Shown here: piece by piece, positions 6,248 through 36,877 of the stretch | Position numbering within the stretch: position 1 is the stretch's first letter | How the letters are laid out: every line of letters begins with the position of its first letter | Source of the DNA: Spirochaetaceae bacterium | GTDB taxonomy: Bacteria; Spirochaetota; Spirochaetia; DSM-27196; SLAA01 | DNA: 37,155 bases | Assembly: GCA_003556605.1 (NCBI GenBank) | Contig: PWQX01000089.1 | Span: forward strand, 1 to 37,155 | Reading direction: 5' to 3' | The notes under the pieces: generated by a model | The model's database searches: none | Seen by the model: the letters and a program-made list of their open reading frames with translations, nothing else | Told to the model about the DNA's origin: nothing | Made by a program: the position numbers and the translations under genes

Positions 6248-6279
6248 CTTCATCCCCCCCATATCGTGGGGGGATGAAG
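6248..6279 (+). terminator. Strong hairpin after the binding-protein gene
   Basis: A perfect 12-bp stem, CTTCATCCCCCC (6248-6259) with GGGGGGATGAAG (6268-6279), and an 8-base loop, 21 bases after the stop. No T run follows. This is typical of the stem after a binding-protein gene that protects its mRNA and lowers downstream permease expression; partial termination is also possible. Confidence 0.6.
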
Positions 6280-6530
6280 GACTCTCCGTGAATCCGGAGG
6301 GAAATCGAGTCGCGCTGTTTTAGTGCCTCCCGCCGCCCTTGATGAAAGCAACTGCAAAGTGTCACGCAGTATGGTTGAACGCGAGACGTGAGCCATGATG
6401 CGCTTCCGATTCCGGGCTTAGGCGGAACCCGCCGGCAGAGTGCAGGGGTGCTGCGCTGCAGCGAAAGCGGCCTGCGAGATGCGAGACGGCTTGTCGATGG
6501 AGCCGCAGCTTGTATATCATTATTCGGCGA

Positions 6531-6592
6531 GAGTCTCGGCACGAGTGAGCGCGCTAGGCAGCTGATTTTGAGCCGAACGCGACTCTTTTTTT
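6531..6592 (+). terminator. Terminator-like stem with T7 run upstream of the permease genes
   Basis: GAGTC (6531-6535) pairs with GACTC (6581-6585), and TCGGC (6536-6540) with GCCGA (6572-6576), leaving a 4-base bulge and a long loop. Seven T follow (6586-6592). It ends 52 bases before the permease ATG, a place suited to attenuation. The long loop makes it weaker than a classic intrinsic terminator. Confidence 0.45.
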
Positions 6593-6644
6593 ATCTTCCT
6601 TTTGAGTAATGTACACCGGGAGGTGTGTAAGGGGTGTGTGTTAA

Positions 6645-7523
6645 ATGAAGATGAAAGCGGAAAAGGGGGCGGTTCTCATATTCGTATTACCTACGCTGGT
6701 CTTTCTCCTGCTGGTCTTCATATATCCACTCTTCTACGGCGTCTATTTGAGCTTGCATTCTACTGCAGCAGGACTGCGCGCCTTGAGCTTCGTTGGACTC
6801 CGGAACTACGTGAGCGTCTTGTCGTCTTCGTTGTTTTGGCTGGGAGTTCGCAACACCATCGTCTATACCGTTGGCACAGTCGGTCTAACGGTTGGTTTTG
6901 GGCTCGCTATTGCCGTGCTGTTGAATCGCATAAGAACGGGAGTATGGGTGTACAGGGCTCTGCTTATACTGCCATTGGGAGTAAGCCCCGTAGTTACGGG
7001 TATGACTTGGCAGATGATGTTTGACCCGTTAGCCGGAATTGTCAACCACCTATTGACACTTGTCGGACTGCCAACTTCACTGTGGCATACCGGATTCGAA
7101 ACAGCGATGCTGAGTGTAATAATAATTGAAAGCTGGCAGTGGATACCGTTCCCGCTTTTCATCATTTATGCCGGGTTGCAGATGCTGCCGCACGAGCCTT
7201 TTGAAGCGGCCACTATTGATGGCGCAACGATCATTCAGCAGATTCGCTATATCACGCTCCCGCTTATTGCACCTGTTCTCGGCCTCGCTACTACGCTCCG
7301 GTTCATTGGAGCGTTCCGTTCATTCGACATCCTTTACGTTGTTACAAAAGGCGGACCGGGTCGGGCTACGGATACGTTGATCCTACAGGCCTTTCAGGAA
7401 AGCTTCTCTTTCTATCGATTCGAATACGGCCTGGTGGTTGGGAAGATAATGCTTCTGATCACTTTGGGTGTATCTGTTCTGCTTGTGAGCCGGGTGACAA
7501 GGGGAGTTGGCACTGGTGAATAG
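6645..7523 (+). CDS. Sugar ABC transporter permease (MalF/UgpA-like)
   Basis: 292 aa. Six membrane segments: one at about 10-30, the rest from 75 to 285. The cytoplasmic EAA loop reads EAATIDGATIIQQIRYITLPLIAP (positions about 187-210), the surface that docks onto the ATPase. WQMMFDPLAGIVN and SFDILYVVTKGGPG are typical of the MalF-like subunit of CUT1 importers. The ATG at 6645 follows an AAGGGGTG site. It overlaps the next permease gene by 8 bases. No ATPase gene is nearby, so a shared MsmK/MalK-type ATPase elsewhere is expected. Confidence 0.93.
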   Translation: MKMKAEKGAVLIFVLPTLVFLLLVFIYPLFYGVYLSLHSTAAGLRALSFVGLRNYVSVLSSSLFWLGVRNTIVYTVGTVGLTVGFGLAIAVLLNRIRTGVWVYRALLILPLGVSPVVTGMTWQMMFDPLAGIVNHLLTLVGLPTSLWHTGFETAMLSVIIIESWQWIPFPLFIIYAGLQMLPHEPFEAATIDGATIIQQIRYITLPLIAPVLGLATTLRFIGAFRSFDILYVVTKGGPGRATDTLILQAFQESFSFYRFEYGLVVGKIMLLITLGVSVLLVSRVTRGVGTGE

Positions 7524-8352
7524 ACACAGAGTTCAGCGTTACCTAATGGCAGCGGCCAAACACATAGTTATGGTTGTTATATGCCTGGTAACGTTGTTTC
7601 CTATCCTCTGGATATTGGCGCAATCACTCAAAGGCTATTTTGATACGATAGCAATACCTCCAAAGATCGTTTTCACGCCGGTTCTTGACAATTTCGTGCA
7701 AGTGTTAGAGCGGAGGGGCTTTCTGCAGGCATTGACAGACAGTTTGCTCGTTGCAGCAGGGTCCAGCCTGTTGGGGTTAACCCTTGGTACACCGTGTGGC
7801 TATGCGCTGGCTAGAGTTCGATTCAGGGGCTCGGAATCGGTCGGTTTTCTTCTTCTTATTACCAGGATGGTTTCCCCGATCGTGATAATTATACCGTTGA
7901 ATCGGCTCTTCGCCGTCATGGGGTTGATTGATAGTCATATAGGTCTCATCGTTGCGCATACATTCATTAATATCGGCATTGTAGTATGGATGATGCGTGC
8001 GTATTTCCGGGACATCCCTGAAAGTCTCGAAGCAGCAGCAAGGATAGACGGGTGGTCAACTGTAGGCGCATTCTGGAGGATAGCTTTACCGTCTGCCGCT
8101 CCCGGCTTGGCTGCGACTACTATCTTCTGCTTTCTCTTTTCTTGGAATGAATTCATGTTCGCACTGACTCTAACCAGTAGATCTGTGCGCACAAGTCCGG
8201 TATTCATAGCCGGAGAGTTTGTCGGATACTTAGCGGTTGAATGGGGTTTGCTCTCCGCAGCCGGTATGCTGATCGTATTGCCGATGCTGATCTTTGTAGT
8301 GGCAATACAAAGAAATCTAATCCGCGGATTGACTATGGGAGCAGTTAAGTAG
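7516..8352 (+). CDS. Sugar ABC transporter permease (MalG/UgpE-like)
   Basis: 278 aa from GTG 7516, chosen because GGGGAG at 7501-7506 lies 9 bases upstream; a TTG at 7507 is too close to it. The start overlaps the stop of the first permease by 8 bases, indicating translational coupling. Six hydrophobic segments; the EAA loop reads EAARIDGWSTVGAFWRIALP and is followed by FLFSWNEFMFALTLT, the usual MalG-like signature. It forms the inner-membrane channel with the preceding permease. Confidence 0.93.
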   Translation: MNRHRVQRYLMAAAKHIVMVVICLVTLFPILWILAQSLKGYFDTIAIPPKIVFTPVLDNFVQVLERRGFLQALTDSLLVAAGSSLLGLTLGTPCGYALARVRFRGSESVGFLLLITRMVSPIVIIIPLNRLFAVMGLIDSHIGLIVAHTFINIGIVVWMMRAYFRDIPESLEAAARIDGWSTVGAFWRIALPSAAPGLAATTIFCFLFSWNEFMFALTLTSRSVRTSPVFIAGEFVGYLAVEWGLLSAAGMLIVLPMLIFVVAIQRNLIRGLTMGAVK

Positions 8353-8386
8353 CAGCGGGATAAAATCAGACACAGCGAGGAATAAA

Positions 8387-9127
8387 ATGGAACAACAGAG
8401 CCGAGTATTGTTTTGCGGCGACGCGCATTTGAAATCCGGTGCGGCGTATTTGGCCGGAGTCATGTCTCACCTCTCTATCTCTTATGATTACATAGAAATG
8501 CAGCAAAAGCTGCCGGATAAACAGCTTGAAAAGGGCTATGCACTGATTATCTTTAGTGACTATCCCAGTACAAATGTCTCAGACAAGCAGATGCTTACCC
8601 TGGTGCGCCTGATAGAAGCTGGAACATCGTTTTGCATGATAGGCGGATGGGAATCTTTTCACGGCTTGCTTGGGTTTTACGATAGAACTCCCTTAGCCGA
8701 GGCACTGCCGGTAAGGTGCAAGACAAGCGATGACCGGAATAACGTGTATCAGGGCTTCGTTGCGGAAGTATCTAAAGATCATGAAATAGTACGAGAGCTT
8801 CCTTTTCACGAGCCACCGGTCATGTGTGGCTACAATTCTTTCGCAGGCAAAGACGGATCCGAAGAGATCCTCAGGTTGAAGAGAATCGTCATCAAGGATG
8901 GCGTTATTTCGTTAGATGAGAAATCAGAACCACTATTGGTGCTCGGTAGATATGGACAAGGAAAGACTTGCGCGATTGCAACAGACTTTGCTCCGCACTG
9001 GGTTGGGGGCTTGGTTGATTGGGGTGATCAGCGTGTCCAGAGCCAGGCGCCCGGGGCAAATGCTATCGAAGTAGGAAATTATTACGTTCAATTCATCGGG
9101 AACATCCTCCGGCATTTGATCGGATAG
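8387..9127 (+). CDS. Putative glutamine-amidotransferase-like protein (DUF1355 type)
   Basis: 246 aa, no signal peptide. It resembles the class I glutamine-amidotransferase-like fold of PF07090: RVLFCGDAH at the start, a mid stretch YALIIFSDYPS and LIEAGTSFCMIGGWESFHG, and a C-terminal VLGRYGQGKTCAIATDFAPHW. The nucleophile-elbow cysteine of true amidotransferases is replaced by an IGGW turn, so glutaminase activity is unlikely. Such proteins often sit in sugar-catabolic clusters with trehalose-utilisation-like roles. The ATG follows GAGG with short spacing. It is downstream of the permeases (34-base gap) and likely in the same transcript. Its exact role is unknown. Confidence 0.75.
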   Translation: MEQQSRVLFCGDAHLKSGAAYLAGVMSHLSISYDYIEMQQKLPDKQLEKGYALIIFSDYPSTNVSDKQMLTLVRLIEAGTSFCMIGGWESFHGLLGFYDRTPLAEALPVRCKTSDDRNNVYQGFVAEVSKDHEIVRELPFHEPPVMCGYNSFAGKDGSEEILRLKRIVIKDGVISLDEKSEPLLVLGRYGQGKTCAIATDFAPHWVGGLVDWGDQRVQSQAPGANAIEVGNYYVQFIGNILRHLIG

Positions 9128-20521: not shown

Positions 20522-20552
20522 ACTTGTAATTGCAATTGATGGGTTATATATT
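20522..20552 (+). promoter_or_regulatory. Operator-promoter site 1 (TTG-N6-CAA) before the oxidoreductase operon
   Basis: TTGTAATTGCAA (20524-20535) is a near-perfect inverted repeat. Its first six bases also form a -35 box, TTGTAA, 17 bases before TATATT (20547-20552). The start would be near 20559, leaving a leader of about 48 nt with an SD site. It is the same layout as at 26492 and 32105. Confidence 0.65.
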
Positions 20553-20606: not shown

Positions 20607-22064
20607 ATGTACACACATGATATCGTTGTTATCGGAGGAGGAGCAGGGGGGCTTAGCGTGGCTTCAGGGTGCGCTCAGCTGGGTCTGAAGACAGCTCTCG
20701 TGGAGCGCGAGCACATGGGGGGCGACTGCCTGCACTTCGGCTGTGTGCCGAGTAAATCGCTGATTCACGTTGCAAGCGAGTTTGCGGCCGCGCGTCGTCT
20801 CTCCGGTTATACGCGCGGTGACTTTACAGTTCCGCCGCCGGACATGCAGGCGATAAACAAGCAGATTGCAGCGGTGATATCCGCGATCGCCTACCACGAC
20901 TCACCCGTGCGCTTCCGTTCGCTCGGTGTGGACGTGTATCTGTCGGCGGCGCAGTTTCGAAACGAGCACGAGGTGGAGACTGGCGGGACGGTGTTGTCTG
21001 CGAAACGCATCGTTGTTGCTACCGGCAGCCGTGCGGCCGTGCCTTCGATCTCGGGATTAGCCGAAGCGGGCTATTTGACGAATCGCGATGTTTTTAGTTT
21101 GCCGCAGCTCCCGAGCTCACTTGCGATCATGGGCGCAGGTCCTATAGGTGTGGAGCTTGGACAGGCGTTTCGACGGCTTGGGGTAGAGGTCACCATCATC
21201 GATAAGGCGGCGCGAATCCTGCCTCGGGATGACGCGGAGGTTGCACGCTTCGTTGCTAAGAAACTCGAGGCCGAGGGCATACAGATCGTGACTGAGGCCG
21301 CGGTCGAAGGTGTCTCGCAAAGCGCCGATGCTAAGGTACTGACCTTACGAAAGGGAAACAAGCGTGATACCGTAGAAGCCTCGGAGATTCTTGTTGCCGC
21401 CGGACGGCGCGCAAACACCGACGAGCTGAATCTTGAGCGCGCGAGTGTTGAGATCGGCCCGCGCGGTGTCATACCGGTTAACGATAAGCTACAGAGTAAC
21501 GTAGCCCACATCTCGGTGATCGGTGATGCCAACGGGAATTACCCGTTTACGCACGTCGCCGGGGCTGAGGCTGCACTCTTAGTTCGCAGACTTGCGCTGC
21601 ACGCCGGGGGCCGCATCAATTACCGAACCGTTCCTTGGGTCAGTTACACCGATCCGGAGCTTGCCAATGTTGGGCATAGTGAGACTTCTGCGGCGGCAGC
21701 CGAAATATCTGCTCGTGTCGTGCGCCAGAGTTTTGCAGGAGTCGACCGCGCGCACGCTGAAACGGCAACCGACGGTATACTGAAGATCGTACTCGATAAG
21801 CGCGACAAGGTAATTGGGGTGCAGATCGCCGCTCGTGGAGCCGGGGAGCTGCTGGGGCCGGCGCTGTTCGCGGTTCGCCATCGATGGAAGCTTGCGAAAT
21901 TTCGTGACGCGCTCACGCCCTATCCTACGATGAGTGAGGTCTACGGCAGGGCAGTCTCGAGCGAGCTCGCCGCTAAGCTGTTTAATCCAACGGTTCGCAA
22001 GATTTTACGTGGGCTGTTTCGCTATCGTGGCCTGGGGCCACAGCCCTCAACGGAGGTCGCGTGA
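20607..22064 (+). CDS. FAD-dependent pyridine nucleotide-disulfide oxidoreductase (MerA/Lpd-like)
   Basis: 485 aa from ATG 20607, with GAAGGGG 9 bases upstream; the longer upstream frame is not family-like. FAD motif GGGAGGLSVASG (10-21), redox-active disulfide Cys41 and Cys46 in GGDCLHFGCVPSK, NAD(P) motif MGAGPIGVELGQAF (about 175-188), and VIGDANG for FAD. The C-terminal dimer domain has YPTMSEV: the active-site His of lipoamide dehydrogenase is Tyr here, as in mercuric reductases. There is no HMA domain and no C-terminal vicinal cysteine pair, so mercury reduction is unlikely. It is translationally coupled to the TVP38 gene (TGATG), a common pairing. Physiological substrate unknown. Confidence 0.9.
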   Translation: MYTHDIVVIGGGAGGLSVASGCAQLGLKTALVEREHMGGDCLHFGCVPSKSLIHVASEFAAARRLSGYTRGDFTVPPPDMQAINKQIAAVISAIAYHDSPVRFRSLGVDVYLSAAQFRNEHEVETGGTVLSAKRIVVATGSRAAVPSISGLAEAGYLTNRDVFSLPQLPSSLAIMGAGPIGVELGQAFRRLGVEVTIIDKAARILPRDDAEVARFVAKKLEAEGIQIVTEAAVEGVSQSADAKVLTLRKGNKRDTVEASEILVAAGRRANTDELNLERASVEIGPRGVIPVNDKLQSNVAHISVIGDANGNYPFTHVAGAEAALLVRRLALHAGGRINYRTVPWVSYTDPELANVGHSETSAAAAEISARVVRQSFAGVDRAHAETATDGILKIVLDKRDKVIGVQIAARGAGELLGPALFAVRHRWKLAKFRDALTPYPTMSEVYGRAVSSELAAKLFNPTVRKILRGLFRYRGLGPQPSTEVA

Positions 22065-22768
22065 TGGTAAGTCGGTCAAAAAATACAAGGGCAGTGGCTG
22101 CGGGTCTCGCAATTGTGGCGTTGTTTGTGGCAGGCTATCTGCTTGATGCACCGCGATATTTGCAGCAAGCGCTTACATGGGTCGATGGGCTGGGGATCTG
22201 GGCTCCGGTGGTGTTTGTCGCGATGTATATTGTCGTCTGTGTGCTCGTTATACCGGGGTCAATTCTCACGCTCGGTGCGGGCGCGGTTTTCGGCGTTCTC
22301 AGGGGTACGCTGTTCACGGCGGTTGGGGCTACCCTCGGCGCCACGGTTGCTTTCTTGCTGGGCCGTACCTTGCTGCGTGACTGGGTAAAGCAGAAGGTTG
22401 AGGCAAGCCCCAAACTCTCCGCTGTCGACGACGCGGTGGAGCGCGAAGGCGGCAAGCTTGTCTTTCTGTTGCGTCTCTCACCGCTTGTTCCCTTCAGTCT
22501 ATCCAACTACGTGTACGGTTTGACCAAAATAAAGACCCGACATTACACGCTCGCCAGTTTCTTCGGAATGTTCCCGGGGATTCTGCTGTATGCCTATATC
22601 GGGTCGCTGGTTCGCAGATTCGCCGAGCTCGGCGCAGGCGGCCGAGTCACGTCTCCGGCGGAGTGGGGCTTGTACATCGTTGGGTTGATCGCGACCGTTG
22701 TTGCCACCACTATGGTCACCATCGTTGCCCGTCGGGCCTTGCGGGAGAAGAGAGTCGCGGAACCGTAA
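22064..22768 (+). CDS. TVP38/TMEM64-family (DedA-like) membrane protein
   Basis: 234 aa from ATG 22064, which overlaps the preceding TGA by one base and has GGAGG 7 bases upstream; a GTG at 22061 is possible. Five or so hydrophobic segments. Family motifs: VVCVLVIPGSILTLGAGAVFG, GTLFTAVGATLGATVAFLLGR, FLLRLSPLVPFSLSNYVYGLT and FFGMFPGILLYAYIG. DedA/TVP38 proteins are membrane proteins tied to lipid scrambling or carrier-lipid flipping and to proton-motive-force homeostasis; this member's role is not known. The pair with a disulfide oxidoreductase is recurrent in bacteria. Confidence 0.9.
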   Translation: MVSRSKNTRAVAAGLAIVALFVAGYLLDAPRYLQQALTWVDGLGIWAPVVFVAMYIVVCVLVIPGSILTLGAGAVFGVLRGTLFTAVGATLGATVAFLLGRTLLRDWVKQKVEASPKLSAVDDAVEREGGKLVFLLRLSPLVPFSLSNYVYGLTKIKTRHYTLASFFGMFPGILLYAYIGSLVRRFAELGAGGRVTSPAEWGLYIVGLIATVVATTMVTIVARRALREKRVAEP

Positions 22769-26491: not shown

Positions 26492-26522
26492 ACTTGTAAT
26501 TACAATATTTTTCTGTTATCTT
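26492..26522 (+). promoter_or_regulatory. Operator-promoter site 3 (perfect TTGTAATTACAA) before the YnjBCD-like operon
   Basis: A perfect 12-bp palindrome (26494-26505). Its first half is the -35 box TTGTAA, 17 bases before TATCTT (26517-26522). The ATG follows after only 9 bases (26532), so the mRNA should have no or almost no leader; no SD is present. The palindrome also lies upstream of the divergent AhpD-like promoter. Confidence 0.7.
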
Positions 26523-26531: not shown

Positions 26532-27521
26532 ATGCAAGTATCAATACAAGGACTCTCGAAGTCATTCGGCCGCACTCCCGTTCTATCGGACTTCAGTCTC
26601 GAGGTTGCCGACGGGGAGTTCATCTCGGTACTCGGCCCCTCAGGGGTAGGAAAGACGACACTCCTTCGTATTCTCGCGGGACTCGACACCGCCGCAGCCG
26701 GTGTTGTGCGATTCGACGGCTTCGCGCCGGCCGGCGGCAACGAGGCGGTGCTGGTCTTTCAAGACTACGTGCTTTTTCCCTTTCTGACGGTGTACCGCAA
26801 CGTCGCGTTCGGACTGGAGGCTCGTAGGCTCTCGAAACATCTGATCGCCGACCGCGTCGGCCGGCTATTGTCGCATTTCGGACTGAGCGAGCAAGCCGGC
26901 CGGTACCCGGCGCAGCTGTCCGGCGGACAGAAGCAGCGAGTTGCGTTAGCGAGAGCGCTTGCAGTCGCGCCGAAGCTCTTACTGCTTGACGAGCCGCTTG
27001 CGAACCTGGATAAGAATCTCAAGCGCGACACCGCGCTATACCTTCGCAGTGTGCAGCGTGAGTTCGGTATCACGACAATCTGCGTGACCCACGATCAGGA
27101 TGAAGCGATGGCGATATCCGATCGAATTGCGGTAATGCTCGGCGGTCGCATTGCACAGGTGGGTACGCCGCAGAGCGTCTATTTCCGACCGGTCTCGCCG
27201 GGCGTGGCACGATTCATGGGGCCGGTGTCGAACTTGCCGGAGAGTCAAATCACCGGCGGCGTAATCGCCCGCGCAGACACGGCAGACATCTGTCTGCTGC
27301 GTCCGGAGCAGCTGAGGGTGAGGAAGCAGCTGTCAGGCGCCTTTCAGGTGCAGGACGTTCGACTCTTGGGGTCGTACCAGCTGTGTGTAGTTACGCTGAA
27401 CGGTGTGCGCTATGAGGCCTTCACCTCACAGCCGGTCCCGTTACAGCTTGGTGATAGAGTGGAGTTCGAGCGGGTGATCCCGCCGTTCGAGGAGGAGTAT
27501 GTTTATGAGGCGAGCTCATAG
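26532..27521 (+). CDS. ABC transporter ATPase (YnjD/PotA-like) with TOBE domain
   Basis: 329 aa from ATG 26532; the frame is open upstream but the domain starts MQVSIQGLSKSFG. Walker A GPSGVGKT (35-42), Q-loop Gln77, signature LSGGQ (129-133), Walker B LLLLDEP with Asp153-Glu154, H-loop His187. From about residue 235 a TOBE-type regulatory extension with CLLRPEQLRV is present, as in Fe3+, polyamine and thiamine importers. It energises the importer encoded by the next three genes; the gene overlaps the binding-protein gene by 17 bases. The mRNA appears leaderless from site 3. Confidence 0.93.
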   Translation: MQVSIQGLSKSFGRTPVLSDFSLEVADGEFISVLGPSGVGKTTLLRILAGLDTAAAGVVRFDGFAPAGGNEAVLVFQDYVLFPFLTVYRNVAFGLEARRLSKHLIADRVGRLLSHFGLSEQAGRYPAQLSGGQKQRVALARALAVAPKLLLLDEPLANLDKNLKRDTALYLRSVQREFGITTICVTHDQDEAMAISDRIAVMLGGRIAQVGTPQSVYFRPVSPGVARFMGPVSNLPESQITGGVIARADTADICLLRPEQLRVRKQLSGAFQVQDVRLLGSYQLCVVTLNGVRYEAFTSQPVPLQLGDRVEFERVIPPFEEEYVYEASS

Positions 27522-28728
27522 GGCGCTTATCACCGCTGTGGTGGCAGCAGTGGTTCTTGCAGCGGCGTGTGCCCCGGAGGCGGAAGTTGATGTACTTGAG
27601 ATCGAGTTCGACAAGCTCGAAGAACAGGCTCAGGGTACCGAGGTGCGTTTTGCGTTATGGGGAGGTGATGCGCGGATCAACGAATGGATTGATACCTATG
27701 TTTCGAATGAGCTTGAGGGTCGCTACGGCATTCGTCTGACGCGCGTTTCGATGGATGCAGCACAGATCGTGAATCGATTGCTGAGCGAAAAGCAGGCTGG
27801 GAGGGAGCGCGGGAGCATAGACCTTGTCTGGATTAACGGTGAGAACTTCAAGCGCGCGCGGCAAGAGGAGCTGCTGTTCGGGCCGTACACACACCGTATA
27901 CCCAATCTCGAGCTGACGGATCCCGAAGAGGTTGATCGCGACTGGGGCTTCCCGGTGGATGGCTACGAGCTTCCGTGGGGCCAAGCCCAGTTTGTATTCG
28001 AGTACGACTCGGCCGAGATCCCTGAGCCGCCGAGTACAATCGAGGCGCTCGATCTCTGGATCCGGGAGAACCCGGGAAGGTTTACCTATCCGCAGCCGCC
28101 TGATTTCACCGGTGCGGCGTTCATACGGCATTTGTTGTATCACTTTAGCGGGGGCTACGAGCAGTACCTTGGTGGGTTTGACCGAGCGCTATACGAAGAG
28201 CACGCGGAGAAGCTATGGGATTATCTTCGAACGATAGAGCCGTACCTCTGGCGGGAGGGGGTAACCTACCCGGCCGACAAAGCGCAGCTCGACGTGCTGT
28301 TCGAACGAAACGAGGTTGCGTTCAACATGTCCTATACGCAGTCCGGCGCTCAGGGACTGATCGATGCGGGCCGGTATCCGGAGACAGTTCGCACCTTCGT
28401 ATTAGACGGGGGTACTCTCACCGGAATCCATTTCACCGCGATACCGTTCAACGCACCTAACAAGGCCGGAGCGATGGTGGCGTCGAATTTCTTGCTCTCC
28501 CCCGATGCGCAGTACTCTAAGAACCTGCCGCAGAACTGGGGCGATTTTACGATTCTTGATCTCAGTCGTCTGAACTCCGAAGACCGCCGGCGCTTTGAAA
28601 CGTTGGACCTGGGCGCGGCCACCTTGCCGGTTGAGGTACTGAACGAGCGCAGCCTGCCGGAAATCCCCGCTGAGTATGTTGATGCGATGGATGAAGACTG
28701 GGAGCGTGAGGTTCTGCGCCGTGAGTAA
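27505..28728 (+). CDS. ABC transporter substrate-binding lipoprotein (YnjB-like)
   Basis: 407 aa from ATG 27505, at 7 bases from GGAGGAG; an ATG at 27499 is too close to it. Signal peptide with a loose lipobox VLAAAC (Cys near residue 24), then an acidic linker. The start of the mature part, VRFALWGGDARINEWIDTYV, and LVWINGENFKRARQEELLFGPYTHRIPN are hallmarks of the YnjB family of periplasmic binding proteins. The gene overlaps the ATPase gene upstream and the first permease downstream (8 bases). YnjBCD-type importers have no settled substrate. Anchored to the membrane as a lipoprotein facing the periplasm. Confidence 0.88.
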   Translation: MRRAHRALITAVVAAVVLAAACAPEAEVDVLEIEFDKLEEQAQGTEVRFALWGGDARINEWIDTYVSNELEGRYGIRLTRVSMDAAQIVNRLLSEKQAGRERGSIDLVWINGENFKRARQEELLFGPYTHRIPNLELTDPEEVDRDWGFPVDGYELPWGQAQFVFEYDSAEIPEPPSTIEALDLWIRENPGRFTYPQPPDFTGAAFIRHLLYHFSGGYEQYLGGFDRALYEEHAEKLWDYLRTIEPYLWREGVTYPADKAQLDVLFERNEVAFNMSYTQSGAQGLIDAGRYPETVRTFVLDGGTLTGIHFTAIPFNAPNKAGAMVASNFLLSPDAQYSKNLPQNWGDFTILDLSRLNSEDRRRFETLDLGAATLPVEVLNERSLPEIPAEYVDAMDEDWEREVLRRE

Positions 28729-29608
28729 CCGGCGCGCACCATGCAGGTGCCGCGTGTTGGCTTTCTTACCCTTGGTCCCTTTCGTGCTGCTTATGGTAGC
28801 CGGCATCGGCTATACCGGCATGCAGTCGCTCGGGTTGTTGGTCTCAACGCGGTCGAGCGTGGCCTACGAGCCGGGGTATGCGGCAATCCTGGGTTCGGCG
28901 TGGTTCTATCGGTCATTGTTCTACAGTTTGTACATCGCTTCGGTATCAACAGGTCTCGCGGTCATACTGGGTACGCTGCTGGCGCTGGCGTTGCGGCGTT
29001 TACCGGATCGCCTGTTCACTGCTGCGCTGGTGTACAAAGTTCCGCTGATTCTGCCGCATGTGGTCATCGGCCTCATCGTGCTTCTCGCCTTCGGCGGCCG
29101 CGGTTTGATTGCGCGTGCGGTTGATGCGATCAGCTTTTGGGCGGCGCTCGGGCTCACCCATCGTGTATTTGATCTGCTCAGCCCGCCGGGCAGCGGAGCC
29201 TTGATCGCCGCTTACGTGTTCAAGTCTGCTCCGTTCGTCACGTTGCTGGTCTACGCCGTGCTGCGCCGCTTCGACACGCGCCAGACTGAGACCGCTCGGA
29301 TGCTGGGCGCAGGAGCGTTTCTCCGGTTTCGGTGCCTGTTGTTTCCGGTGCTGTGGCCCCCGGCGGCCACAGCCGGAGTAATTGTTTTCCTTTTCAGTTT
29401 CGGCGCATTCGACCTGCCTTTTCTGTTGGGAGGAAGTCGTCCGGCGATGCTCGCCATAGATGTATTCAATCGGTATTGGTATCGAGATCTCTCCGCCCGG
29501 CCGGCGGCGATGGCGAGTCTCATCGTGATGTTGGCAATCTCGCTGGCTTTCGTGATCGTATACTTCCTTTTGGTTCGGCGCCAGCGCCGCGGGGTGCGCC
29601 ATGTCTAG
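28721..29608 (+). CDS. ABC transporter permease 1 (YnjC N-half-like)
   Basis: 295 aa from GTG 28721, which overlaps the preceding stop by 8 bases (GTGAGTAA). About six membrane helices. The coupling loop is ETARMLGAGAFLRFRCLLFPVLWP, a degenerate EAA motif, and FSFGAFDLPFLLGG follows. In E. coli YnjC both permease halves are fused in one chain; here they are two genes. A frame starting at 28676 would give an unlikely polar extension inside the previous gene. Confidence 0.88.
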   Translation: MSNRRAPCRCRVLAFLPLVPFVLLMVAGIGYTGMQSLGLLVSTRSSVAYEPGYAAILGSAWFYRSLFYSLYIASVSTGLAVILGTLLALALRRLPDRLFTAALVYKVPLILPHVVIGLIVLLAFGGRGLIARAVDAISFWAALGLTHRVFDLLSPPGSGALIAAYVFKSAPFVTLLVYAVLRRFDTRQTETARMLGAGAFLRFRCLLFPVLWPPAATAGVIVFLFSFGAFDLPFLLGGSRPAMLAIDVFNRYWYRDLSARPAAMASLIVMLAISLAFVIVYFLLVRRQRRGVRHV

Positions 29609-30386
29609 ACCAGGGGTATTGAATTTTGGGGTGCTCATAGTTGTACTGGTCTTTTTCACTCTGCCGGTGGCTCTGTTGGTGCTGTATAGCCTAAACGTCA
29701 GATACGGCAGTGTTCCTTCGTTGCGCGCGTGGTTGTATCTTGCCGGCCAGTATCGGACTTTTGGTGCAGCCCTTGTCTCCTCATTGGCGTACGGCTTGAG
29801 CGCAGTAGCGCTGGTCTTCGCGGCGTGTGTCATCCCGGCGAAGGCGATTGCCCGTTCGTCGAGGAGCGGCACGGCGGTGTTGGAGGCGGTCTTGCTGACG
29901 CCGGCGCTGTTGCCGAGTATCACCTTCGCGATCGGCGTACACCAGCTCTTCATCCGTGCCGGACTTGTCGACACCTGGCTGGGGGTCTTGCTGGTGCTGT
30001 CGTTTGTCGCGTATCCGTACATGCTGCGCGCTCTGATTGCCGCGTACGAGTCGATAGACCCGGCGTATGAGCAGTGTGCGCGTAACCTCGGCGCCGGGAT
30101 GTTTCAGACCTTCAGGCTTGTGGAGTTGCCGTTTCTTCTGCCCGGCGCAGCGGCCGGGGGCTCAGTAGTCTTCCTGGTAGCGTTCTCGGACTACTTTCTG
30201 GTGTTTCTCATCGGTGGCGGGATTGTCCCTGCGTACACGAGCTATCTCGTGCCGTTCATTCGCTCGGCCGACTACTCAATTGCCTCCGCGCTGTCGATCG
30301 TATTCTTGCTTGTACCAATTGCGTTGTTCGTGGCACAGGATCGGCTATTGACCCTGGTGCTGCGCGGCCGCGGTATGGCGGTGTAG
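29601..30386 (+). CDS. ABC transporter permease 2 (YnjC C-half-like)
   Basis: 261 aa from ATG 29601, overlapping permease 1 by 8 bases. Six hydrophobic segments; the loop EQCARNLGAGMFQTFRLVELPFLLPG is the ATPase-coupling EAA region, followed by FLVAFSDYFLVFLIGGG. It forms the heterodimeric inner-membrane channel with permease 1. It is last in the operon; the stop is 58 bases from the end of the convergent MarR gene. Confidence 0.9.
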   Translation: MSRPGVLNFGVLIVVLVFFTLPVALLVLYSLNVRYGSVPSLRAWLYLAGQYRTFGAALVSSLAYGLSAVALVFAACVIPAKAIARSSRSGTAVLEAVLLTPALLPSITFAIGVHQLFIRAGLVDTWLGVLLVLSFVAYPYMLRALIAAYESIDPAYEQCARNLGAGMFQTFRLVELPFLLPGAAAGGSVVFLVAFSDYFLVFLIGGGIVPAYTSYLVPFIRSADYSIASALSIVFLLVPIALFVAQDRLLTLVLRGRGMAV

Positions 30387-30444: not shown

Positions 30445-30891
30445 TCAATAATCATCATACAGAGTCTTGAGAATACCGAGCGCTATAAGCCAGCGAGCTC
30501 TCCCGAGACGCCGGACGCTGCGCGCCTGCGCCTCTTTCCAGTAAGGGAGGTTCTCCTCGAGTGCATGCCAACCATTGTCGGTAAGCTCGTACTCGCGGCG
30601 CCGCTTATCTGTGCCGTCAACGCGAATAACCATGCCCGATTCCTCTGCCGCATCCATATTCCGCGAGATCGTACTCAGCTCCGAGTTTAAGCGCCGGGCG
30701 AGCTCTCCGGTTGAAAGCGGCGATTCAAGAGCCAGGTTCAAGAGCAAGGCGTACTGGCCTGAGGTGATTGAGGCGGGGCGAAAGGCCTCGACAAACCAAC
30801 GACTCACGGTCTTTTCGGCCCGCCGCAGATTATAGCCCGGACAGAATGCCGGCACCCCTTTGAGCGTCTTTGCGAGTTGTTTTCGGTTCAT
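30445..30891 (-). CDS. MarR-family winged-helix transcriptional regulator
   Basis: 148 aa from ATG 30891, typical MarR length; the longer frame from TTG 30942 is less likely. The winged helix runs from LSTGELARRLNSELSTISRN (recognition helix) to DGTDKRRREYELTDNG (wing), with dimer helices at both ends (FVEAFRPASITSGQYALL and ILKTLY). MarR dimers bind short palindromes and release them on binding small phenolic or lipid-like ligands or on thiol oxidation. It has one Cys (in PAFCPGYN), which could serve as an oxidation sensor as in OhrR. It lies amid five copies of a TTG-N6-CAA palindrome and is my candidate for the protein that binds them. No copy is seen in its own promoter. Confidence 0.9.
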   Translation of the reverse strand: MNRKQLAKTLKGVPAFCPGYNLRRAEKTVSRWFVEAFRPASITSGQYALLLNLALESPLSTGELARRLNSELSTISRNMDAAEESGMVIRVDGTDKRRREYELTDNGWHALEENLPYWKEAQARSVRRLGRARWLIALGILKTLYDDY

Positions 30892-30901
30892 ACTATCATC
30901 C

Positions 30902-30927
30902 CCGGAGGGCCTTTCAGCGGCCTCCGG
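30902..30927 (-). other. Hairpin just upstream of the marR-type gene start
   Basis: CCGGAGGGCC (30902-30911) pairs with GGCCTCCGG (30919-30927), one bulged base, 7-base loop. On the minus strand its 3' arm (CCCTCCGG) ends about 10 bases before the ATG and takes in the nearest purine-rich stretch. It may lower translation of the regulator or mark an upstream end. Confidence 0.4.
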
Positions 30928-30997
30928 TTGCCAGTGGTCCAAGCTTGCAATACCGTAAACCGGCGCCGTGAAGCGCGGGAATAGGTTATGTGCAGAA

Positions 30998-31846
30998 CTA
31001 TCTCGGTTCGTTCAACGCCCAATCGTAGTCATCTCGTGCCCGCGGTCGATAACCGTTCTCGGCATAGCGCCGCAGCTGTGCTGCAAGGTCGTCATCGGCA
31101 TACCTCTTTAGGTGGGTGACCACGCCCTCGATGTTGTCACCAAAGTCTTCTTGGTACCAGTTGAATATGCTTGACATGCGTAGTCTGTTACCATCGAATC
31201 GGGCGCCGCGGGGATGGTTGATGTATTCTCTTGCAGCGCTGTCGAAAACACTCCGGTAGTTTTCACGCGTAAATGGTTGGGGGTGCAGGTTAGGGCAGCC
31301 CATACTCGCGCAGTTCACCGCATAGTGTATTCGTGGGTCCTGCCAAATCGGACGTATGATGCGGTGCTCAATGTCATTCAGGCTGATGTCCTCGCCTTCA
31401 ACGGTCACCAGCGCAGCGTCCCACGGGTGTCTGTTGAACGCACGCCCGGAGATGTTGATGTCACGAATTGAGTCTACCGGGTAGTGTTCGAGAATCAATT
31501 CTACCGTTACCGCGTTGTAGAGGTTGAGCCAGTACGCCATCTGCTCGTCGCGATTGAGCTCAGACACACTTACGCCCTCCAGCTGTGCGACGTAATGTTG
31601 AAGCGCCGCCCTGTCTCCAGCGGAGACTTCGCCATATGGGACCAGGTTAACCCCTGAGTTATGATCGGTAATGAGGTAGGTATCGAGAAAAGCGCCCCAT
31701 TGGGAGTGATCAATTTTGGTGGTGGAGGTGGAATCGTGGGCCTCCCACCGCGGCCAGAGCTCGGCCTGGGGGGCGCCCGCCGCGCTAACGGCGGATGCGA
31801 ATATAAGGACGAGAGCGACACTCGTGGTCATTGCTAAGCGATACAT
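30998..31846 (-). CDS. Exported DUF547-domain protein
   Basis: 282 aa from ATG 31846, with AAAGGAGGG 5 bases upstream. Signal peptide 1-23 ending SAVSAAGA. DUF547 features: NREEQMAYWLNLYNAVTVE-like stretch, HPWDAALVTVEGEDISLNDIEHRIIRP, HYAVNCASMGCPNLHPQPF and an acidic-basic C-terminal tail. DUF547 proteins are periplasmic and may have a papain-like cysteine-peptidase fold, with the Cys-Asn region NCASMGCP conserved; activity is unproven. Upstream is a perfect-arm copy of the TTG-N6-CAA operator (31878-31889). It is monocistronic. Confidence 0.88.
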   Translation of the reverse strand: MYRLAMTTSVALVLIFASAVSAAGAPQAELWPRWEAHDSTSTTKIDHSQWGAFLDTYLITDHNSGVNLVPYGEVSAGDRAALQHYVAQLEGVSVSELNRDEQMAYWLNLYNAVTVELILEHYPVDSIRDINISGRAFNRHPWDAALVTVEGEDISLNDIEHRIIRPIWQDPRIHYAVNCASMGCPNLHPQPFTRENYRSVFDSAAREYINHPRGARFDGNRLRMSSIFNWYQEDFGDNIEGVVTHLKRYADDDLAAQLRRYAENGYRPRARDDYDWALNEPR

Positions 31847-31877: not shown

Positions 31878-31889
31878 TTGTACATACAA
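31878..31889. promoter_or_regulatory. Operator site 4 (TTGTACATACAA) before the DUF547 gene
   Basis: Arms TTGTA and TACAA are perfectly symmetrical around CA. It is 32 bases upstream of the DUF547 ATG on the minus strand. Unlike the other sites its half does not serve as a -35 box; a -10 overlapping or just after it would fit repression, but no clear pair of boxes was found. Confidence 0.5.
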
Positions 31890-32104: not shown

Positions 32105-32135
32105 ACTTGACTATACAAGTTTTTACTGTTAGCTT
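32105..32135 (+). promoter_or_regulatory. Operator-promoter site 5 (ACTTG-N6-CAAGT) before the transporter/acyltransferase operon
   Basis: ACTTGACTATACAAGT (32105-32120) has perfect 5-bp arms. TTGACT (32107-32112) is the -35 box, 17 bases before TAGCTT (32130-32135). The ATG is only 6 bases further (32142), so transcription should start at or next to the A of ATG and the mRNA be leaderless. No SD is present. Confidence 0.7.
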
Positions 32136-32141: not shown

Positions 32142-33074
32142 ATGCACGCAATCATTGCGATGCTCATCGGCATAGCCGGGACGTCGGTGATTCACACATC
32201 CAAAGGCGTGATGAAGCTGGGGCTGCAGCGCCTTCAGATCGCGCGCGCTACGAACGCCCCCCAGCGCGGGGCGTCAGTGGTCTACGGTCTCGGCATGCTC
32301 GCGAATTTTACCACGCCCTTTTGGGTCATGCTCGCCAATCTCTTCGCCCCCACGGTGTTCTATACCTCAATGTACGGGCTCGGGCTCGTCGCGTTGCTCG
32401 TTTTCTCGCGAATTGTGTTGCGCGAGCAACTCACACGGAGACATATACTCGGTACCGGGGTCATCATCGCCGGCACGGGATTTCTCGGTGCGGGCGAGCT
32501 GCTCGGTGCAGCGCCGATGCTCACGAGCGCCGAGCTTACTCCGCTTGTTGTGACCACCGTGCTGTGGGTCACCGGAGGTCTTGCCGGCGCTCTAGTCACC
32601 GGAAGCCGGCGGATCGGCTTTCAGGAGATTTTTTTCGGCTTGGCGGCCGGAGGTATGGCGTCGCTGGATGCCCTGCTCAAAGGAATCGCGCAGCAAGGTT
32701 CCGGAGGCGCGACACTGATACCCGGCACGGCGCTCGGCGGGGTGGTATTGGCCGGAAGCTTTGTGGTCGCGGCCGGAGCCTTCGGGATGATACAGTGGTC
32801 GTATGTAAGATACTGCAGAGCGAGTGTTATGGGAACAGCGTATGATCTGAGCTACGTGGGTCTTCCCGTGCTCTTGTTCGCATTACTCAAGCCCGACTAC
32901 GGGTTGACGCTATTCAATACCTTAGGCCTTGTGACTCTCGCCGCCGGAGCCCTGATTGTGCAGAAGGCCACCGCTGTGCCCACCATGCACGAGCAAGATC
33001 GCGAGCAGCCGGCGGTGTTTACAGGAAGTATAACCGGCTCAGAAGCTGAAGCTTGTCCGCGCGTGGCGGATTGA
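32142..33074 (+). CDS. DMT-superfamily (NIPA/EamA-like) membrane transporter
   Basis: 310 aa with nine or so hydrophobic segments. It begins IIAMLIGIAGTSVIHTSKGVMKLG, then has ANFTTPFWVMLANLFAPTVFYTSMYG and REQLTRRHILGTGVIIAGTGFL, the pattern of NIPA-like members of the drug/metabolite transporter superfamily. A polar 30-residue tail (ATAVPTMHEQDRE to the end) has no match. Possible cargo includes Mg2+, amines or lipid intermediates. No SD is present and the mRNA is probably leaderless. It is first in a five-gene operon; the next gene starts 15 bases after its stop. Confidence 0.8.
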   Translation: MHAIIAMLIGIAGTSVIHTSKGVMKLGLQRLQIARATNAPQRGASVVYGLGMLANFTTPFWVMLANLFAPTVFYTSMYGLGLVALLVFSRIVLREQLTRRHILGTGVIIAGTGFLGAGELLGAAPMLTSAELTPLVVTTVLWVTGGLAGALVTGSRRIGFQEIFFGLAAGGMASLDALLKGIAQQGSGGATLIPGTALGGVVLAGSFVVAAGAFGMIQWSYVRYCRASVMGTAYDLSYVGLPVLLFALLKPDYGLTLFNTLGLVTLAAGALIVQKATAVPTMHEQDREQPAVFTGSITGSEAEACPRVAD

Positions 33075-33088
33075 AGGAGGAGCTGCGT

Positions 33089-33988
33089 ATGAAACCGCTT
33101 GCCGCGCAGGTTCCGGCCGGCGCATTGGCAAAACAGCTGAGCGAACGAACTCGTATTACACGATTCAAGGACCTCGAGGTGCACATGTTTCAGGCCGGCG
33201 AGGCGCCCGACGTGGTCGCAGAGATCGGACGCATCCGTGAGCAGGAGTACCGTCACGTGGGAGCGGGCCGCGGCGTTGAGCGGGATATAGACCGCTTCGA
33301 CACCGAGTGGCCTTCATACCTCCAAATCGTCTCGTTTGACCGCGCCGAGGGCGAGGTTGTCGCCATGTACCGCGCGATTCACTGCGGCTGGGCGCTGGAG
33401 CGCGGCGGGCTCAACGCGCTTCGAACTACGGGCTTGTTTGAGTTCAGCGAGGAGTTCGTCTCAGCGGAGCTGCCGCGGCTGGTGGAGCTCGGCCGTTCTG
33501 TGGTCAACCGCTCCGCGCGCAGGGCGGTGCAGGGGCTGTTCTCGGTGTGGGCTGGACTCGGAGCCTTGGTGGGTGAATGGTCCGATATCATCGGGTTTTT
33601 CGGTAATGTCTCGGTCTATCGTAATGTTTCGGATACCCAGCTGGATACTATGCTGGGCTTTCTGTATGGATACCACGGTGATACCGGAGCGCGGGTTCGG
33701 GCGAGATCGGAGTGCGCGTATGAGGCGCGCGCTCAAGAAGACGCCCCTACCTCCTTCGATGCGCTGATACAGCGGGCGTCTCGGGAACGATGGAGTGTGC
33801 CGCCGATTCTGGTGTCTTATTTGAAGGCAAGCCCGGGTATGATTGCGTTTGACACCGCGATCGATCATGACTTTGGCGGCGCGCGTGAGATCGCGATAAT
33901 GGTGCCGACCGATACCATAACTGAGAAGACACGCACACGCTTTATCGACCCCTATGTCTCGATCAACCCTGAGAGGTTTCGATGGTGA
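33089..33988 (+). CDS. GNAT-fold N-acyltransferase (OlsB/GlsB-like, Acetyltransf_5)
   Basis: 299 aa from ATG 33089, with AAGGAGGAG about 8 bases upstream. The GNAT domain covers most of the chain: EIGRIREQEYRHVGAGRGVERDIDRFDTEW, VVAMYRAIHCGWALERGG, LVELGRSVVNRSARR and GLGALVGEW. This is the pattern of ornithine-lipid OlsB and Bacteroides GlsB, which move a 3-hydroxyacyl chain from ACP to the amine of an amino acid. The C-terminal ~60 residues are extra relative to a minimal domain. No olsA-type second acyltransferase is adjacent. It lies between a DMT transporter and a taurine-type importer, so the amine acceptor might be taurine or a related amine; this is a guess. Confidence 0.8.
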   Translation: MKPLAAQVPAGALAKQLSERTRITRFKDLEVHMFQAGEAPDVVAEIGRIREQEYRHVGAGRGVERDIDRFDTEWPSYLQIVSFDRAEGEVVAMYRAIHCGWALERGGLNALRTTGLFEFSEEFVSAELPRLVELGRSVVNRSARRAVQGLFSVWAGLGALVGEWSDIIGFFGNVSVYRNVSDTQLDTMLGFLYGYHGDTGARVRARSECAYEARAQEDAPTSFDALIQRASRERWSVPPILVSYLKASPGMIAFDTAIDHDFGGAREIAIMVPTDTITEKTRTRFIDPYVSINPERFRW

Positions 33989-34003
33989 TCGCAGCGGCGT
34001 CAG

Positions 34004-34864
34004 GTGTCTGAGGATTCGGTTACAAAAATGCAGCTGAGAACGAAAGGCTCCCGGCAGCCTAAACGCGTGTCGGTCCTAGGGCAAACACCGCAGAAGAACG
34101 GGCACTTGCGATGGTCGCAGGGGCTTATCGGCATTGGATTAGTCGTTGCACTGTGGGCCTTGATAGCCCATCTGGAGGTGCTGCCGGAGCTATTCGTGCC
34201 CCGACCATCGAGCGTGTTGCGTGCGTTTGCCGAAGTGACCGCAACCGGTTATCGCGGCGGGACCCTATTCCAGCACGTGGGGCGCAGTATGTCGCGTCTG
34301 CTATCGGGGTTCGTGCTCGCGGCACTCACCGCGATTCCGCTGGGGATGGTGATGGGGTTCAGCCATACCGCGCGGCGCGTACTCGACCCGTTAATCGAAC
34401 TCTATCGTCCCTTGCCGCCGCTCGCATACTACACGCTGCTGATCGTGTGGATGGGGATCGGGGAGGCGTCGAAGATCGCTTTGCTGTATCTCGCAGCGGT
34501 ACCGCCGATTACGATCGCAACGATGTCCGGCGTGGCGGCGCTGAATCAGCAGCGCGTGGAAACCGCGTATGCCCTCGGTGCCGCGAAACGGCAAGTACTG
34601 TGGCACGTAGCGTTTCCCTCGTGCTTGCCGGATATCTTTACCGGATTGCGGGTTGGCATCGGTTTCGCGTATACGACGTTAGTGTCGTCAGAGATTGTAG
34701 CCGCAGCTCAAGGAGTGGGATGGATGGTCCTGGATGCGGGCAGGTTCTTGCGGACCGACATCATCTTCGTGGGAATAATCGTTATGAGTATCACCGGCTG
34801 GGGGCTGGATCGGTTCATTCGGATCGTCGAACACTATGTCGTGCCCTGGAAAGGCCAGGGATAA
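34004..34864 (+). CDS. Taurine/aliphatic sulfonate-type ABC transporter permease (TauC/SsuC-like)
   Basis: 286 aa from GTG 34004 (ATG 34028 is an alternative; ribosome site weak for both). A basic polar N-terminus of about 40 residues precedes six membrane segments. The TauC-type EAA loop reads ETAYALGAAKRQVLWHVAFP, followed by GLRVGIGFAYTTLVSSEIVAA, which is characteristic of the nitrate/taurine/sulfonate (NrtB/SsuC/TauC) branch. It lies 15 bases after the acyltransferase stop. Whether the cargo is taurine, a sulfonate or another compound cannot be told from sequence. Confidence 0.9.
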   Translation: MSEDSVTKMQLRTKGSRQPKRVSVLGQTPQKNGHLRWSQGLIGIGLVVALWALIAHLEVLPELFVPRPSSVLRAFAEVTATGYRGGTLFQHVGRSMSRLLSGFVLAALTAIPLGMVMGFSHTARRVLDPLIELYRPLPPLAYYTLLIVWMGIGEASKIALLYLAAVPPITIATMSGVAALNQQRVETAYALGAAKRQVLWHVAFPSCLPDIFTGLRVGIGFAYTTLVSSEIVAAAQGVGWMVLDAGRFLRTDIIFVGIIVMSITGWGLDRFIRIVEHYVVPWKGQG

Positions 34865-34896
34865 CGGGCAGTGAATAGAAGAGGAGGATGGAGACA

Positions 34897-35970
34897 ATGC
34901 GTATGAATAGGAAAGTGAATAGGAAAGAAGGATACCGGAGGGGTTTGTTCTTCGCGGCATTAGTGCCGGTTTTTGCGCTCCTGTTGTATGGGCACGTGTT
35001 CGCCGCAGGATCCGGAGAAGCGCGCGAGCTGGAGGAAGTGGTGATCGGCTTTCAGACGATCCCCAACGGTGAGATCGTAGCCAAAGCCCTGGGCTGGCAC
35101 GAGGAATCGCTGGGTGTCCCGATTCGGTGGGTGCAGTTCAATTCCGGTAGCGAGCTCAACGCTGCGGTTGCCGCGGGGAGCGTTCATATGGGATTAGGCG
35201 GAAGCTCGACGACCGTTTCGGCGATTGTTCAAGGCGTTCCGGCAGAAGTGATCTGGATCTATAACATCATCGGCGAAAATGAAGCGCTGGTGGTGCGTGA
35301 AGGCAGTGAGGTTGAGGCGGTCGAAGATTTGGTCGCTAAGCGCGCTGCAGCGCCGTTCGGGGCGACAACCCATTACCATCTCCTGGCTGCGCTGAGACTC
35401 TTCGACGTAGACCCTGAGGATCTCACGATCATGGACCTCTCGCCGTCCGACATGCTTGCCGCTTGGCAGCGGGGCGACATTGACGCCGGCTTCGTATGGG
35501 AGCCGACTCTGGCGGCGATGCTCGAACATGGCGGCGAGGTGCTCATTACGAGCCGGGAAATAGCGGAGCACGGATTCCTCACCGGCGACATCGGTATCGC
35601 TCATACTCGTTTCGCCGCGCGGCACCCCGAAATCGTTGTGGAATACCTGCGCAATCAGATGCAGGCAGTTGAGTTGATTCGCTCGGATCCTGAAGCGGCA
35701 GCCGAAGCGATCGCCGGGGAGTTTGGACTGTCGCAGCACGAAGCGCTGCGTCAGATGAGCTCGCTGATCTTCTTAGACGGGGACGAGCAATTGGGGGCTG
35801 CGTACCTCGGCACGCCGGATACGCCGGGGGGCTTGGCCGAGGTCTTCTTGGAGACCGCCCAATTCTTGGAAGAGCAAGGCACTATTCGTGAGGCTCCGAA
35901 TCTGCAAACTTTCCAAGACGCAATCAATCCGAGTTTTCTGCAGCAGGCGATTGACGAACAGAAGCGGTAA
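34897..35970 (+). CDS. Taurine-type ABC transporter substrate-binding protein (TauA-like)
   Basis: 357 aa from ATG 34897, 9 bases after AGGAGG; ATG 34888 abuts that site and ATG 34903 is also possible. Signal peptide 1 to about 37 (RRGLFFAALVPVFALLLYG, end VFAAGS). The mature part starts VVIGFQTIPNG and shows TauA family features: VQFNSGSELNAAVAAGSVHMG, GSSTTVSAIVQG, PFGATTHYHLLAAL and DAGFVWEPTLA. This is closest to taurine-type binding proteins and supports an aminosulfonate cargo, though the pocket cannot be checked here. It lies between the permease and ATPase genes. Confidence 0.9.
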   Translation: MRMNRKVNRKEGYRRGLFFAALVPVFALLLYGHVFAAGSGEARELEEVVIGFQTIPNGEIVAKALGWHEESLGVPIRWVQFNSGSELNAAVAAGSVHMGLGGSSTTVSAIVQGVPAEVIWIYNIIGENEALVVREGSEVEAVEDLVAKRAAAPFGATTHYHLLAALRLFDVDPEDLTIMDLSPSDMLAAWQRGDIDAGFVWEPTLAAMLEHGGEVLITSREIAEHGFLTGDIGIAHTRFAARHPEIVVEYLRNQMQAVELIRSDPEAAAEAIAGEFGLSQHEALRQMSSLIFLDGDEQLGAAYLGTPDTPGGLAEVFLETAQFLEEQGTIREAPNLQTFQDAINPSFLQQAIDEQKR

Positions 35971-35977
35971 CGCGTAA

Positions 35978-36877
35978 ATGGTGGGAGTGCAACGCAGCCA
36001 AGCGCGTTGGGATTCGGTCCCGACGGATTCAACCCCGAAGAACGGCTCGTCTAAGAGGACGGCATCGCTAAACCGCGCAGCGCCGACGCCCAGCGACGTT
36101 TCGGGCCTCGCTGCGACTGAGCTTGAGCTATGCGATGTCTCGTTCTGGTACGATACCGCGACCGGTGTGATCCCGGCGATTGATAGCCTATCGCTGAAGA
36201 TCGCCAAGGGTGAGTTCGTAAGCATGGTCGGACCGTCAGGGTGCGGCAAGAGCACGCTTCTGCGGCTGATGGCGGGTTTTCTGCAAGCGCAGGAAGGTGC
36301 CGTGTACGACGAGTCTACGCTTGTGAACGGTCCTGACTGGCGGCGTGGGCTGGTATTCCAACGCCCGGAGTTGTACCCGTGGCTGACGGTCGAGGCTAAT
36401 GTGGCGTTCGGGCCGCGCATGCGCGGGTTAGCGGCCGCTGAGCGAACAAAGCGTGTGCGCCACTATCTGGAGTTGGTTAAGCTCTGGGAGTTCAGACGCA
36501 AGCGGCCCTACGAGCTCTCCGGCGGTATGCAACAGCGGGTTGCGATAGCTCGTGCGTTGGCCAACGAACCGCACATTCTGCTCATGGATGAACCCTTCGG
36601 CGCGCTCGACGCCCTCACTCGCGAGCGTATGCAGGACGAGCTTCGTCAGATCCACGCGCGTACCGCATGCACGGTCGTGCTTGTTACCCACAGTGTGGAA
36701 GAGGCAGTCTACCTCTCGTCGCGATGCATAGCACTCACCGATCGTCCCGCGCAGATCGCCGCCGATATCCCGATTGATTTCGGTGCGGCTTCAGAGGGTG
36801 TACAGGGCCGCGAAATCAAGGCAAGCCGACCGTTTGTAGCTCTGCGGGAACAAATTATGGATTACATCTGGCATTGA
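35978..36877 (+). CDS. Taurine-type ABC transporter ATPase (TauB/SsuB-like)
   Basis: 299 aa. Walker A GPSGCGKS (85-92), Q-loop Gln128, signature LSGGM (180-184), Walker B LLMDEP with Asp204-Glu205, H-loop His238, and the SsuB/TauB-type end [20 protein letters not shown]. The first ~45 residues, before [11 protein letters not shown], are a polar, Ser/Pro-rich extension not usual in TauB. Either it is a genuine extension or the true start is a later non-ATG codon. The ribosome site is weak. It is last in the operon and 8 bases after the binding-protein stop. Confidence 0.92.

Follow-up and report, generated by a model that had tools for sequence, protein, structure and literature searches.

Among the described bacterial aminolipids are the glycine lipids, the ornithine-taurine lipid and the aminosulfonate lipid of roseobacters (PMC11631085, PMC4484230, PMC8319176). 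The glycine-lipid synthase of Bacteroides consists of a separate N-acyltransferase, GlsB, and an O-acyltransferase, GlsA (PF19576), while the same two acyltransferase domains form the bifunctional ornithine-lipid synthase OlsF. In the roseobacter sulfur-containing aminolipid (SAL, salA), an aminosulfonate head group carries two acyl chains (PMC8319176); SalA is of the PlsC type (LPAAT), and the N-acyl step was unassigned (PMC11631085). Cerilipin, the ornithine-taurine lipid of Gluconobacter cerinus, is a taurine-containing bacterial lipid (cited in PMC4484230), and its taurine is transferred onto an ornithine lipid (PMC12493201) rather than being the primary N-acyl acceptor. Here we analyse an operon in which a GlsB-like N-acyltransferase (hereafter NAT) is joined to a taurine-type importer and a DMT-like membrane protein. 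It lies in a stretch of 37,155 nucleotides, called the window as a whole (contig PWQX01000089.1 of a Spirochaetaceae bacterium, assembly GCA_003556605.1). A taurine-fed aminolipid pathway is, in our view, the best explanation of this operon, and we hold it with moderate confidence on the strength of sequence comparisons. Loci of this kind suggest that soda-lake spirochaetes use scavenged taurine to make a membrane lipid that is sulfonated and free of phosphorus. The original prediction knew of no such described operon, and none turned up in the literature consulted on bacterial N-acyl taurine synthesis.

The operon comprises five plus-strand open reading frames (ORFs; 32142-36877). These encode the DMT-like (EamA/SMR-like) membrane protein (32142..33074), NAT (33089..33988), a TauC-like ABC permease (34004..34864; 245 bits to TauC), a TauA-like taurine-binding protein (34888..35970; 213 bits) and a TauB-like ABC ATPase (35978..36877; 236 bits). 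The intergenic gaps of 14, 15, 23 and 7 bp rest on the ATG at 33089 as the start of NAT, a good start with a ribosome-binding site (RBS). The original prediction had correctly described five genes spaced 7-32 bases apart, an acyltransferase of the OlsB/GlsB-like GNAT type and a TauCAB-like importer. It had passed over the GlsA-like gene, a DUF547 gene and a MarR gene (the latter two just upstream, on the minus strand), and the likely regulon.

Profiles, motifs and a structural model assign NAT to a divergent GlsB-like clade. The protein belongs to Acetyltransf_5 (Pfam E 4e-9) and scores 163 bits against the GlsB glycine N-acyltransferase (NCBIfam NF053696), below the cut-off of 300, and 113 bits against OlsF, in its C-terminal half, below the cut-off of 620. 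Unlike in OlsF, the two acyltransferase domains of the window genome are not fused and belong to separate genes. Among 198 relatives, the GlsB cut-off was passed only by a second copy in one genome (G028, 318.7 bits). Members of the NAT clade share the motifs GAGR, R112, FFGN and D259, as distinct from a GlsB-like clade with GGG[TS]GK and FFGK, from which NAT departs at R61, R112, N173 and D259; the GGGTGK and FFGK motifs of that clade are missing from NAT. Two genomes, G011 (L061) and G028 (L060), carry both types, each beside its own GlsA-like gene. Together with the residue differences, this makes it probable that the divergent type has a role of its own. The clade motifs do not show the acceptor, yet the division into two types suggests a task other than glycine acylation. 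The AlphaFold model of NAT (pLDDT, the predicted local distance difference test score, 95) has acyl-homoserine-lactone synthases as its nearest solved folds, a likeness which agrees with the way PMC11631085 groups these enzymes. No solved structures of close NAT relatives were found by sequence search.

A GlsA-like O-acyltransferase gene (PF19576) lies directly before NAT or one gene off in most spirochaete loci. There is none in the window, and the copy of the window genome is located at C197:12908-13669. From these components a pathway can be proposed. TauCAB, with its taurine-type pocket, would import taurine, NAT would transfer a 3-hydroxyacyl chain to the taurine nitrogen, and the GlsA-like enzyme would add a second acyl chain at the hydroxyl, by precedent of GlsB/GlsA. 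The predicted product, N-(3-acyloxyacyl)taurine, would be an anionic, phosphorus-free, sulfonated lipid of the same type as the roseobacter SAL, made with a PF19576 O-acyltransferase instead of SalA and with imported taurine as the amine. Alternatively, NAT could make a singly acylated N-acyl taurine, which the DMT-like protein would export as a surfactant or signal. The location of the GlsA-like gene outside the operon in the window genome and the likeness of the NAT fold to acyl-homoserine-lactone synthases would fit such a product. We consider it very improbable, as GlsA is the immediate neighbour of NAT in most relatives and is still preceded, in the window genome, by a shared operator-like palindrome.

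The linkage between NAT and the taurine importer is recurrent. We compared 46 genomes of the spirochaete order (G000 to G045, G000 being the window genome), of which 31 have a NAT-family gene, 20 have this type of TauA, and 19 have both. NAT was present in 19 of the 20 genomes with TauA and in 12 of the 26 without it (Fisher p 4e-4; 4e-3 among genomes at least 90% complete), p values from which the relatedness of the genomes was not removed. Since the NAT of G033 is of the GlsB-like type, the divergent clade by itself accounts for 18 of the 20. A neighbourhood search could have found the pairing to be unique to the window; instead, NAT and TauCAB are close together in ten genomes (G000, G020, G022, G026, G030, G034, G035, G038, G043 and G045), and the pairing was re-formed in several gene orders. 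The ten clusters draw on NAT, TauCAB, the GlsA-like O-acyltransferase, the DMT gene and the DUF547 gene, in at least five orders: (i) DMT-NAT-TauCAB, (ii) GlsA-NAT-TauCAB with a convergent DMT, (iii) TauA-TauB-GlsA-NAT, (iv) TauCAB divergent from DUF547-GlsA-NAT(-DMT), and (v) DUF547-TauCAB convergent with a GlsA-NAT-DMT run. In G043 TauC is a fragment at the contig end. Furthermore, NAT and TauCAB are about 8 kb apart in G005, and the contig ends of G027 are compatible with the fourth order. Chance linkage was rejected, with P ~1e-7 when only the five separate gene orders are counted, the genomes not being independent.

The NAT and TauA trees differ in the neighbours that they give to the window genome. 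Its NAT falls within its own genus and family, grouping with those of G001-G003, other members of family f1 and three f3 genomes (support 100/100). For TauA, the sister sequence is that of a genome outside this family, G045 (100/98). This difference indicates that the NAT-TauA join probably arose more than once. On the NAT tree, the presence of TauA needs six changes, four of them forced by well-supported branches. Repeated joining is the simplest reading of these sequence trees; an ancient cluster that underwent many losses and transfers may be an alternative history.

The importer itself resembles TauABC of E. coli. All three components have a Tau-type protein as their best match, with scores under the equivalog cut-offs (TauA 213 vs 304), and among solved structures the binding protein is closest to E. 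coli TauA (1e-43). In E. coli TauA, taurine is bound by Gln30, Gly61, Gly79, Glu106, Thr132 and Asp205, and Trp176 contacts MES (morpholinoethanesulfonate; PMC6906117). Asp205, the equivalent of which is absent from SsuA, confers the preference for taurine. The pocket could have lacked sulfonate ligands, and yet every tested ligand residue is kept: Q30, G61, G79, E106, T132, W176 and D205, seven out of seven, are invariant in all 24 of 24 spirochaete sequences. With the same offset, three further residues numbered in PMC6906117 (55, 84 and 109) disagreed with the letters of the chain, and we set them aside. The pocket also bears on the identity of the acceptor, which in the same pathway could be a different aminosulfonate (cysteinolic acid or homotaurine, for example), on the model of the roseobacter lipid. 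A bacterial aminosulfonate lipid does exist (PMC8319176), with its N-acylating enzyme unidentified as of 2024 (PMC11631085), and E. coli TauA crystallises with taurine analogues (PMC6906117). However, the affinity of E. coli TauA for these analogues is far below that for taurine (PMC6906117), and the spirochaete pocket keeps all tested taurine contacts, including Asp205, and we consider another aminosulfonate improbable as the acceptor.

The importer differs from that of E. coli in its setting: no TauD or other known desulfonating enzyme was found, and the genes are linked to acyltransferases instead. Neither TauD (E. coli control detected) nor SsuD was found in any of the 46 genomes, and no bona fide Xsc exceeded the cut-off in 61 genomes. 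There is no PFL-like protein in the window genome, and hence no IslA-type enzyme. Our searches thus found no known route to taurine sulfur; there may be other routes, or a use of taurine as an osmolyte. As a separate observation, in the loci of a further spirochaete family, f34 (L148-L152), the neighbours of TauCAB are a YeeE-type sulfur transporter, a CoA-disulfide-reductase/rhodanese protein and sulfurtransferases, and a second NMT1-type or Tau-like ABC set is found near TauCAB in three of the five.

The gene set would belong to a small regulon marked by the palindrome TTGTANNTACAA, together with redox and membrane genes. Twenty-one bp before the DMT start lies an inverted repeat, ACTTGACTATACAAGT (32105..32120), two mismatches from TTGTANNTACAA. 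We take it to be the "site 5" under which the original prediction had placed the five genes, and regard it as a candidate operator for DMT-NAT-TauCAB. In 529 kb of order-level loci, TTGTANNTACAA occurs in 36 exact copies, against 0.05 expected from shuffles, and it has zero copies in the f34 or gammaproteobacterial loci; as the loci were picked for these genes, the count describes their surroundings rather than whole genomes. The majority are found shortly before GlsA, TauC/DUF547, a flavin adenine dinucleotide (FAD) disulfide oxidoreductase with a VTT partner, or a YnjBCD-like ABC operon, and in G020, G030 and G034 a copy precedes a regulator-like or TPR ORF, followed by GlsA-NAT-TauCAB. Across the whole window genome there are six exact copies, against two for a reversed control. 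One of the six is located some 600 bp ahead of the remote GlsA, with a short ORF in between, a placement with a chance probability of about 0.1%. G013, G015 and G016, which lack both NAT and TauA, have 0, 0 and 1 copies. The other copies of G000 and G020 (L183, L184, L187) precede DUF3179, DsrE-like, YHS-domain and second-type FAD-oxidoreductase genes, and with these genes the regulon resembles a response to redox or membrane stress. The short ORF before the remote GlsA (L137 9397-9696) resembles, by eye, the start of a transaldolase.

Several of these sites can be seen in the window, upstream of the operon. The DUF547 gene is read from the minus strand (30998..31846; the ORF reaches 31885, with a likely start at 31846 after the RBS AAAGGAGG) and adjoins TauC or GlsA in many relatives. 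Before it lies an exact palindrome, TTGTACATACAA (31878..31889), of which the 22-bp context is kept before GlsA in G002 and G003. Literature on DUF547 yielded nothing informative. The gene for the FAD disulfide oxidoreductase (MerA/lipoamide-dehydrogenase-like; 20610..22064, plus strand) and that for its partner, a VTT-domain membrane protein (22061..22768, plus strand), follow TTGTAATTGCAA (20524..20535), which has one mismatch; orthologues of the oxidoreductase stand beside TauCAB, DUF547 or NAT in several relatives. A MarR-family protein (30445..30942, minus strand) is perhaps the natural candidate for the regulator of the palindrome sites, with orthologues in the same place, beside GlsA-DMT-NAT, in G001-G003 and weaker homologues beside TauB in G022 and G027. 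An exact TTGTAATTACAA site is also found at 26494-26505, in front of a YnjBCD-like ABC transporter operon (26532-30386). The promoter region there resembles that before the DMT gene, and the site recurs at the orthologous ATPase genes of G002, G003, G020 and G030.

The DMT-like protein adjoins NAT in most relatives, and as a candidate aminolipid or amine transporter it might move the lipid across the membrane, a role suggested by genetic linkage. The original assignment to the DMT transporters is weaker than those of the other four genes. EamA matches occur in 8 of 13 orthologues (E up to 1, best 0.0006) and NIPA matches in 6 of 13, in both cases below threshold, and the AlphaFold model is an all-helical membrane protein (pLDDT 82); the window protein itself has no Pfam match and does not reach the EamA cut-off. 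Matches of the model to solved structures were weak, namely nucleotide-sugar transporters at E ~0.1 and the SMR protein Gdx-Clo.

A number of observations weigh against the taurine-fed pathway. TauA was not detected in 12 of the 31 NAT genomes, including three of the window's own genus. Incomplete assembly is unlikely to be the sole cause of the missing TauA in G001-G003, which are 85, 91 and 76% complete. NAT and TauCAB are on separate contigs in six genomes (G006, G012, G014, G025, G033 and G041), and the gammaproteobacterial loci with NAT homologues have no linked taurine importer genes. The NAT clade motifs are common to TauA-positive and TauA-negative spirochaetes and to Gammaproteobacteria, which implies that taurine import is not required for the clade and would be one optional source of acceptor. 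Conversely, none of the five f34 genomes with TauA has a divergent NAT (no NAT match), and their TauCAB, with the same TauA pocket, sits among sulfur-transfer genes. SsuD is absent from these five genomes as well, which weakens the argument from missing taurine-degrading enzymes. In the window genome GlsA is outside the operon, and the role of the DMT-like protein is a guess. Finally, since the palindrome set includes redox and other genes, co-regulation is no proof of one pathway.

These observations could be accommodated if NAT and GlsA made a glycine-type or other amino-acid lipid, and TauCAB served the supply of an osmolyte, in saline alkaline water, or of sulfur, the genes being neighbours through one stress regulator. 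The best curated match of NAT is indeed GlsB, and NAT genomes without TauA, f34 genomes with TauA and no NAT, and unrelated redox genes in the palindrome set would all fit. Nevertheless, the linkage was re-formed in several orders, and TauA nearly always occurs with NAT within the order. Moreover, the GlsB score of NAT is far under the cut-off, its sequence is without the motifs of the GlsB-like clade, and both types are found together in G011 and G028. We regard such a division of tasks as unlikely. The original proposal, that imported taurine or another aminosulfonate is N-acylated to a sulfonated aminolipid, stands in part: it gains from the recurrent linkage, the taurine pocket and the GlsA partner, and is set back by NAT without TauA and by the f34 TauA without NAT.

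In its widest form, the taurine-fed pathway would amount to a new bacterial lipid class: haloalkaliphilic spirochaetes would use a divergent GlsB/GlsA pair to turn scavenged taurine into N-(3-acyloxyacyl)taurine, and a MarR-type regulator at TTGTANNTACAA would induce this synthesis along with redox-defence genes. Members of the clade in haloalkaliphilic Gammaproteobacteria may make related lipids. We put this forward tentatively. If true, a known organosulfur nutrient would serve as a ready-made lipid head group instead of being degraded, and an enzyme clade would be in hand for N-acylating an aminosulfonate, the step that was still unassigned in PMC11631085 in the case of the roseobacter lipid. 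Sulfonated aminolipids in soda lakes could then also be traced by a marker gene, and there would be a substrate open to direct test.

The window genome is a metagenome-assembled genome (MAG) of 296 contigs, with a completeness of 99.4% and a contamination of 4.4%. Named relatives of its NAT come mostly from Spirochaetales and Spirochaetaceae MAGs, and their sample names (CSSed, B1Sed), read as labels, suggest soda-lake sediments. The remoter relatives include many alkaliphiles and halophiles (Alkalimonas, Alishewanella, Natronospira, Natronospirillum, Idiomarina), as well as Leptolyngbya, and there was no close relative in the viral contigs searched. The end of the contig (37077-37155), about 200 bp after TauB, lies inside the 5' region of a group II intron (Rfam group-II-D1D4-4, 48.1 bits vs a gathering score of 49, E 8e-10).

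In haloalkaliphilic Gammaproteobacteria (L102-L128), NAT follows a DinB-like gene and a TANGO2-GlsA fusion, and the same fusion is found in one spirochaete locus, L043, of family f3. Vibrio penaeicida and a relative (L131, L133, L134; ~5241-8828) encode a fused, OlsF-sized protein with a NAT domain. Upstream of it are a gene similar to the DinB-like gene above, one for TANGO2 and one with a YHS domain, the last of a kind that also occurs in the spirochaete regulon.

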